Part shown: in pieces, positions 36,826 to 54,346 of the stretch
How the letters are laid out: each line of letters starts with the position of its first letter
How positions within the stretch are numbered: the stretch's first letter is position 1
Origin: Candidatus Heimdallarchaeota archaeon
GTDB taxonomy: Archaea; Asgardarchaeota; Heimdallarchaeia; Hodarchaeales; Hodarchaeaceae
DNA: 64,000 nucleotides
Direction of reading: 5' to 3'
Assembly: GCA_020353515.1 (NCBI GenBank)
Contig: CP070695.1
Span: forward strand, 2,640,155 to 2,704,154
Notes under the pieces: generated by a model
The model's input: the letters and a program-made list of their open reading frames with translations, nothing else
Databases searched by the model: none
Told to the model about the DNA's origin: nothing
Made by a program: the position numbers and the translations under genes

Positions 36826-36984
36826 TGCCGAGGGTGCGATTTGAACGCACGACAACTGGATATCCATCTCACAGATGAACTGGAGACTTCAGTCCAGCGC
36901 TAACGGGATTTGATACCATTATAAAATGGTGATACTCCCGGGATTCTCATTTACTCATTAAAGTAAACTCTAAGCTACCTCGGC
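36826..36984 (-). tRNA. tRNA-Phe(GAA) with three introns, two in the D-loop
   Basis: The acceptor GCCGAGG pairs with CCTCGGC and the T-arm is GTGCG-TTCAAAT-CGCAC. The anticodon stem CTGGA/TCCAG encloses CTGAAG and A after removal of a 25-nt intron (36862-36886, internal helix CATCT/AGATG) at 37/38. The D-arm is also interrupted. My best reading is one intron at 36944-36969 (helix TTTAC/GTAAA) and one at 36902-36934 (helix ACCAT/ATGGT), leaving GCTTAGTCCCGGGAGAGC. With all three removed, the tRNA is exactly 75 nt. The exact D-loop boundaries are uncertain by a few bases. Confidence 0.88.
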
Positions 36985-37583: not shown

Positions 37584-37723
37584 TGCTCCGACCGGGATTT
37601 TCCAACCACAAACAGTGTGTTTGGGTTCTTTGAACCCGGGTCCTTCCGCTTAGATTCAATATTGAATTCAGCCAGATTCGGGGCGAAAGCCCGGAATGAT
37701 GGGCCGAGCTACACTATCGGAGC
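37584..37723 (-). tRNA. tRNA-Glu(UUC) with a T-loop intron and a second non-canonical intron
   Basis: The acceptor is GCTCCGA/TCGGAGC with discriminator A, and the first 30 nt are identical to those of the tRNA-Glu(CUC) gene at 49342. The anticodon arm reads CCGGG-CTTTCGC-CCCG, anticodon TTC, with no insertion at 37/38. Instead about 32 nt (37647-37678) interrupt the 3' side of the anticodon stem near position 42-44, containing the palindrome ATTCAATATTGAAT. A second insertion of 31 nt (37598-37628, helix CAAACA/TGTTTG) splits the T-loop after TTCAAA. Removal of both leaves about 75-77 nt. Confidence 0.88.
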
Positions 37724-44437: not shown

Positions 44438-44599
44438 GCGGGGGTAGCCAAGCTAGGTCAAAGGCGGCATTAAATGGGCTAGATGATAGTTTAGCATATC
44501 ATAAATTAATGCGCTGTCCAAAGGCGCTGGACTTAAGATCGCTTTTGATAAGCAATCCAGTCATATAGATGTACGAGGGTTCAAATCCCTTCCCCCGCA
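44438..44599 (+). tRNA. tRNA-Leu(UAA) with two introns, one at the D-arm/anticodon-arm junction
   Basis: The acceptor GCGGGGG/CCCCCGC, a class II variable arm and discriminator A identify tRNA-Leu. The anticodon loop CTTAAGA gives TAA. A 17-nt intron (44538-44554) sits at 37/38. A 60-nt insertion (about 44467-44526) lies after the D-stem near position 26, with strong internal pairing GCATTAA/TTAATGC. It is bordered by the direct repeat CAAAGGCG, so the exact ends can slide by up to 8 nt. Removal of both gives 85 nt, the expected Leu length. Confidence 0.92.
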
Positions 44600-49041: not shown

Positions 49042-49262
49042 GCTGGGGTGGCTTAAACGATAATAATCATTTTATCGTGGCGAAGCCTGGTATAATCATA
49101 CTGTCTATAGTCAGAATGCCGAGAGCGCGGGACTCATAATCTGAGAACAATTCTCATAGCGTTCTAAGGGCACGAATCTCGCTTTCAGACGAGACATCCC
49201 GAAGTCGGGGGTTCGAATTTAGGTAAAATGCATTTTATCAAACGAAAAGCCCCCCCCCAGCA
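49042..49262 (+). tRNA. tRNA-Met(CAU) with four introns
   Basis: The acceptor GCTGGGG/CCCCAGC, discriminator A, T-stem GGGGG/CCCCC and anticodon arm CGGGA-CTCATAA-TCCCG are all clear once insertions are removed. Proposed introns are: D-loop 49056-49083 (helix CGATAA/TTATCG), D-loop 49093-49122, anticodon loop about 49140-49196, and T-loop about 49219-49249 (palindrome TAAAATGCATTTTA). The remaining D-arm is GCTTA-GCCTGGTA-GAGC, nearly the same as in tRNA-Lys. Introns make up about 146 of 221 nt and leave about 75 nt. The type is elongator Met by sequence, but an Ile(CAU) identity cannot be fully excluded. Confidence 0.87.
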
Positions 49263-54210: not shown

Positions 54211-54346
54211 AGGGACGTGGCTTAGTTTGGAAAAGTTCCCGGTTCGGGTCCGTAAGCCGATTTCGGCTGGCGGCGTAACTCCGGGAGATCGGGGGTTCAA
54301 AGTTATTACGGCTGTGCGCCGTGTTATGAAAATCCCTCCGTCCCTA
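54211..54346 (+). tRNA. tRNA-Pro(CGG) with anticodon-loop and T-loop introns
   Basis: The acceptor is AGGGACG/CGTCCCT with discriminator A, and the D-arm GCTT...AAGT is intact. The anticodon stem CCCGG/CCGGG encloses TTCGGG, T and a 31-nt intron (54249-54279, helix AGCCG/CGGCT). The T-stem GGGGG/CCCTC encloses TTCAAA, T and a second 31-nt intron (54302-54332, helix ACGGC/GCCGT). Removal of both gives 74 nt. Confidence 0.9.

Follow-up and report, generated by a model that had tools for sequence, protein, structure and literature searches.

A tRNA-Met(CAU) gene with four introns in an archaeon of the Hodarchaeales

Archaeal tRNA genes have been described as carrying 'a maximum of three introns' (PMC4033280) or 'up to three' (PMC8450103), in agreement with an earlier note that took three as the usual upper limit. 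That note had read, from the letters of a 64,000-nt stretch of Candidatus Heimdallarchaeota archaeon DNA (hereafter the window), a CAU tRNA gene broken at four sites. The question raised by this locus is whether a gene in five pieces can encode a working tRNA, and which one. In this work we conclude that the locus is very probably that of the elongator tRNA-Met, probably present in a single copy, whose four introns would be cut by an (alpha-beta)2 EndA endonuclease and whose exons would be joined by the RtcB ligase. Four introns are one above the published archaeal maximum. Our literature search found no archaeal tRNA gene with four, and the Asgard genomes of PMC11291895 may hold some.

Structure and detection of the gene

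The gene lies on the + strand at positions 49042-49262 of the window (221 nt) and comprises five exons of 14, 9, 15, 22 and 14 nt (74 nt) and four introns of 29, 30, 57 and 31 nt (147 nt), at tRNA positions 14/15, 22/23, 37/38 and 59/60. Its layout is GCTGGGGTGGCTTA(29 nt)GCCTGGTAT(30)AGCGCGGGACTCATA(57)ATCCCGAAGTCGGGGGTTCGAA(31)GCCCCCCCCCAGCA, with the following features.

49042..49055, +: exon 1, GCTGGGGTGGCTTA, positions 1-14; acceptor 5' strand GCTGGGG, T8 and G9, D-stem 5' strand, A14
49056..49084, +: intron 1, 29 nt, D-loop 14/15; H GGCT/GGCG with an outer G-G mismatch, 7-bp inner helix, without outer helix
49085..49093, +: exon 2, GCCTGGTAT, 9-nt micro-exon, positions 15-22; joined directly to both neighbours in the sister species G004
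49094..49123, +: intron 2, 30 nt, D-loop/D-stem 22/23; H TGGT/GCCG
49124..49138, +: exon 3, AGCGCGGGACTCATA, positions 23-37; holds the anticodon CAU
49139..49195, +: intron 3, 57 nt, canonical site 37/38; h CGGGA/TCCCG, H CTCA/CGAG with one A-C mismatch
49196..49217, +: exon 4, ATCCCGAAGTCGGGGGTTCGAA, positions 38-59
49218..49248, +: intron 4, 31 nt, T-loop 59/60; h GGGGG/CCCCC, H TTCG/CGAA
49249..49262, +: exon 5, GCCCCCCCCCAGCA, positions 60-73; G60, 3' strands of the T-stem and acceptor, A73

Once joined, the exons form a complete tRNA of 74 nt with anticodon CAU, an acceptor stem GCTGGGG/CCCCAGC followed by A, an anticodon arm CGGGA-CTCATAA-TCCCG and a T-arm GGGGG-TTCGAAG-CCCCC. The earlier picture of arms split by two D-loop insertions, one in the anticodon loop and one in the T-loop, was thus borne out, as was the statement that introns outweigh exons two to one (ratio 1.99:1). 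The figures given with it, about 146 nt removed and a 75-nt product, were each off by one and are corrected here to 147 and 74 nt. Placing the D-loop cuts one nucleotide away yielded a product 2 nt longer than the intronless orthologues, and 14/15 and 22/23 were therefore preferred.

The unspliced locus was reported neither by ARAGORN nor by Infernal with RF00005, the latter of which does find three neighbouring tRNAs. With introns of up to 100 nt permitted, ARAGORN found no tRNA in the 221-nt sequence, and it called the spliced 74-mer tRNA-Met(cat). We wrote a parser, supplied with no positions, that derives candidate introns solely from bulge-helix-bulge geometry and then rates how well the spliced product fits a tRNA. 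At the locus, its optimum was the same four-intron splicing as the parse made by hand, with a score of 37.7, including 30.6 for the tRNA part. As a control, the acceptor, T8 and T-arm side were held fixed and the remainder was dinucleotide-shuffled; none of 400 shuffles reached this score, the best one attaining 30.4.

Orthologues, copy number and identity

The strongest evidence for the introns is comparative. The gene adjoins SRP54, whose named relatives are from Candidatus Hodarchaeota and Heimdallarchaeota genomes, and the syntenic orthologues within the genus constitute a natural deletion series in which single introns are cleanly missing exactly at the inferred junctions. All four introns are present in this genome (G000) and in G005, G007 and G009; introns 1, 3 and 4 in G006; introns 1 and 3 in G001, G002 and G008; introns 2 and 3 in G003; and intron 3 only in G004. 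Farther away, the 37/38 intron is the sole one in G012, from another family, and G013, an order-level relative, has those at 37/38 and 59/60. Counted by intron, intron 1 thus occurs in eight genomes of the genus and is absent from G003 and G004, intron 2 occurs in G000, G005, G007, G009 and G003, and intron 4 in G000, G005, G007, G009, G006 and G013, both being absent from the other orthologues. Intron 3 is shared by all orthologues examined, among them those of order- and class-level relatives. The introns of G007 and G009 were read by eye, and G001, G002, G003 and G008 were likewise curated visually, as the parser preferred other optima there.

Where an intron is absent, its flanking exons meet precisely at the predicted junction, so that the boundaries are fixed independently of folding; the boundaries predicted for introns 1 and 2 rest mainly on this comparison. 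In a tree of SRP54 the four-intron species cluster with moderate support (87/65), the row of G009 being only 21% filled, and most other forks of the genus are unresolved. The exons are nearly invariant among the orthologues and the introns diverge. Their patchy distribution indicates repeated gains and losses of introns of this gene within the genus. In G003 an additional intron sits in the D-loop of the adjoining tRNA-Glu gene (L043, L036), and in G004 one sits in its T-loop, indicating that intron turnover extends beyond tRNA-Met.

The locus could also be imagined as a decaying pseudogene that accumulated insertions, the working elongator tRNA-Met being encoded elsewhere. Its invisibility to the standard finders would fit such decay, and a second copy could be missing from a genome estimated to be 96% complete. 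Against this, four species keep the same four-intron gene, whose exons are nearly invariant and whose introns covary. The earlier note had held that a complete, uninterrupted Met(CAU) gene elsewhere, together with a lack of mature RNA from this locus, would speak against its reading; no uninterrupted elongator copy was found in the 4.94-Mb single-contig genome, which gave only one Met-like match, the other CAU tRNA being Ile2-like. A T-arm pattern search of the genome returned match counts near those of a reversed-pattern control. We regard a pseudogene as very improbable.

Since tRNA-Ile2 (with a modified C34) also has a CAU anticodon and identity was judged from sequence, the locus might have been taken for that gene instead. 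However, G000:C1:2823463-2823589 holds a distinct CAU tRNA whose acceptor (GGGCCTG...CAGGCCCA) is of the Ile type, and ARAGORN calls the product of 49042-49262 Met, though by anticodon alone. An Ile2 identity is thus extremely improbable. The archaeal initiator tRNA begins with AGCGGG, from which the 5' end of the present gene, GCTGGGG, differs; the initiator gene itself was not found with two patterns. A Met(CAU) gene broken by four introns, as first proposed, and one that looks functional, remains the best-supported reading.

Pairing at the intron junctions

The earlier note had proposed that the junctions be folded for bulge-helix-bulge motifs. Pairing of this type exists at all four of them, strict at the anticodon and T loops and relaxed at both D-loop junctions. 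In each case, the central helix is formed by four exon bases and four intron bases, each set ending three bases before one of the two cuts; it is flanked by 3-nt bulges, and the cuts fall two nucleotides past it. All four H pairs are formed in introns 2 and 4, and three of four in introns 1 and 3, and the pairing is retained in the other species. The outer helix h is present at introns 3 and 4 only, and introns 1 and 2 are classed as relaxed because they lack it. The place of intron 4 in the T-loop mirrors that of the canonical intron in the anticodon loop, 59/60 being the counterpart of 37/38.

Covariation was seen at introns 1 and 4. For intron 1, 97.8% of the pair cells are paired, compared with 27-69% when the pairing is slid, and four pairs of its inner helix are altered on both sides. 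For intron 4, a G-to-A change at position 57 is matched by a C-to-U change in the intron, and 100% of the cells are paired. At intron 3 the exon stem covaries, and no pair of H or h' is altered on both sides across the orthologues. Two of the four pairs in the central helix of intron 2 are wobbles. In a comparison of five sequences by eye, the inner hairpin of this intron is strong and different in sequence in G007, G009 and G003 but weak in the present genome.

When the whole precursor was folded with ViennaRNA, neither the central helix of intron 1 nor the motif of intron 3 appeared in the minimum-energy structure. For intron 3 on its own, a fold with the motif costs 2.6-4.7 kcal/mol more than the optimum. 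Competing structures arise when the precursor is folded freely, and such folding is not decisive as a judge of motif formation. A rival exon helix, GGCUU/AAGCC, spans the intron 1 sites, though the invariant intron GGC favours the assigned pairing over it.

These weaker D-loop motifs bear on another possibility, a real gene from which fewer introns are excised, one D-loop insertion being kept as an enlarged D-loop. Such retention would fit the lack of outer helices at both D-loop junctions and the fact that the motif of intron 1 is disfavoured in free folds. But the D-loop would then exceed that of the sister species G004, which has no insertion there, by about 30 nt, and each D-loop intron is separately absent from a sister species in which the same D-arm is exactly restored. 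Other isotypes of this genome, moreover, are interrupted by introns at these sites or next to them (Arg GCG at 14/15; Phe at 15/16 and 22/23). Retention is accordingly given very little credence, and excision of all four introns is preferred.

Intron 3 has further conserved parts. A CGCGCU segment is complementary to exon AGCGCG in most species, with a matched change in G003, and pairs with it in one of the competing free folds of the precursor; this complementarity is lost in the present genome. A CTGAGA..TTCTCA hairpin and an AAGGGCA motif are also conserved in the intron (49139-49195 and orthologues), and class-level relatives have instead AAGGGCTAGA and TGAGTCC, complementary to the anticodon arm. 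A role of the intron 3 complementarities as a guide or a folding switch is possible.

Genome-wide tRNA introns, splicing enzymes and implications

A census of tRNA genes was made from Infernal RF00005 hits and about 0.8 Mb of scanned stretches, using the parser and curation by hand. It is a lower bound, since the initiator Met, Tyr and Leu CAA genes were not found in it. At least 44 archaeal-type tRNA genes were counted. Of these, 12 are intronless, 19 have a single intron, 10 have two, two (Phe GAA and Ser TGA) have three, and the tRNA-Met gene has four. Together they hold at least 49 introns (median length 30 nt); at least 32 of the 44 genes have introns and 13 have two or more. In Thr GGT, Trp, Glu TTC, Ser TGA and some others the introns are clearly present and their boundaries are not clear. 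Other multi-intron genes seen in the window are as follows.

36826-36984, -: tRNA-Phe(GAA), introns at 15/16, 22/23 and 37/38; missed at the Infernal gathering score, spliced form called Phe by ARAGORN
37584-37723, -: tRNA-Glu(TTC), anticodon- and T-loop introns; missed by ARAGORN and Infernal defaults
44438-44599, +: tRNA-Leu(TAA), D- and anticodon-loop introns; missed by both defaults
54211-54346, +: tRNA-Pro(CGG), anticodon- and T-loop introns; missed by both defaults

The tRNA-Met gene is the extreme of this genome-wide pattern. The earlier note was right to place four introns near or beyond the known limit; its remark that they are unexpected in this kind of genome has to be qualified in view of the census and of the heavy tRNA intron loads reported from other Asgard lineages. 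In PMC11291895, three Asgard genomes have 228 tRNA introns, with several in over half of the tRNA genes, 92-95% of the tRNAs of Atabeyarchaeia and Freyarchaeia have at least one intron, often non-canonical, and the main text states no maximum number per gene. These lineages are likewise Asgard, but belong to different classes from the Hodarchaeales.

Two side observations concern other tRNA genes of the genome. The tRNA-Trp gene (G000:C1:2804468-2804666, -) has a D-loop intron and a long anticodon intron with ATGATGA and CTGA, which resembles the box C/D guide intron known from tRNA-Trp genes of archaea. Three intronless tRNA genes, at G000:C1:156715, 387279 and 2114959, are bacterial- or mobile-element-like in look.

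Among previously described genes, tRNA-Pro UGG of Pyrobaculum islandicum, of the Thermoproteales, has three introns at 25/26, 37/38 and 56/57, and the elongator tRNA-Met of an algal nuclear genome also has three, both according to PMC4090602. Like the three-intron genes of Thermoproteales, the present gene combines several small bulge-helix-bulge introns, canonical and non-canonical, in a host with a predicted (alpha-beta)2 endonuclease and a high genome-wide intron load. It differs in having four introns, of which two flank a 9-nt exon within a single D-arm, and in its host, an Asgard archaeon and not a crenarchaeon. Nor is there a sign of transposition between isotypes: no similarity was detectable between introns of different isotypes (39 introns compared), and the only pair above the shuffled maxima, Thr CGT and Thr TGT, are isoacceptor paralogues and hence give no Thermoproteales-like signal. 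The algal gene likewise has several introns at canonical and non-canonical sites, but is eukaryotic.

Introns of this kind are removed by endonuclease cutting followed by RtcB ligation. The genome encodes one RtcB ligase, an alpha subunit of the predicted splicing endonuclease (183 aa), whose best match of known structure is Aeropyrum pernix EndA alpha (E 1.9e-43), and a beta-like second subunit (212 aa) without the aligned histidine. This points to a two-subunit architecture, the assembly of the subunits in this archaeon being inferred. The alpha subunit keeps the Y-H-K active-site residues and aligns gap-free through the crenarchaea-specific loop of the A. pernix enzyme, to which crenarchaea owe a broad specificity; Lys39, aligned with the loop lysine, is invariant in 30 of 30 Heimdallarchaeia sequences compared. 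Broad substrate specificity depends on this lysine, and relaxed motifs are cut efficiently by (alpha-beta)2 and epsilon2 enzymes only (PMC6379350). Judged by sequence, the genome thus has a putative relaxed-motif endonuclease together with a ligase.

We infer that the gene would be transcribed as a pre-tRNA of about 221 nt, which the (alpha-beta)2 endonuclease would cut at eight sites, at strict motifs for 37/38 and 59/60 and relaxed ones for 14/15 and 22/23, before RtcB joins the five exons into the 74-nt tRNA. Introns 1 and 2 would probably be removed in turn, with ligation between, because exon 2 would be a free 9-mer if both were cut first.

A broader scenario is tentative and rather doubtful: tRNA introns may have been gained in a burst in Hodarchaeales, separately from Thermoproteales and enabled by the endonuclease with the crenarchaeal-type loop, reaching in one essential gene a record of four introns, with a 9-nt micro-exon forcing ordered cutting and ligation, and with the intron 3 complementarity perhaps serving as a folding switch or modification guide.

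Standard finders miss such multi-intron tRNAs and can thus report false gaps in Asgard genomes. The conserved four-intron gene indicates that the endonuclease-ligase pathway can face eight cuts and a 9-nt exon in an apparently single-copy essential gene. Hodarchaeales are regarded as among the closest archaeal relatives of eukaryotes, and the gene therefore bears on the origin of the four-subunit eukaryotic enzyme and of its restriction to 37/38. As the genus has living one-, two-, three- and four-intron states, the gain and loss of tRNA introns become directly testable in it.
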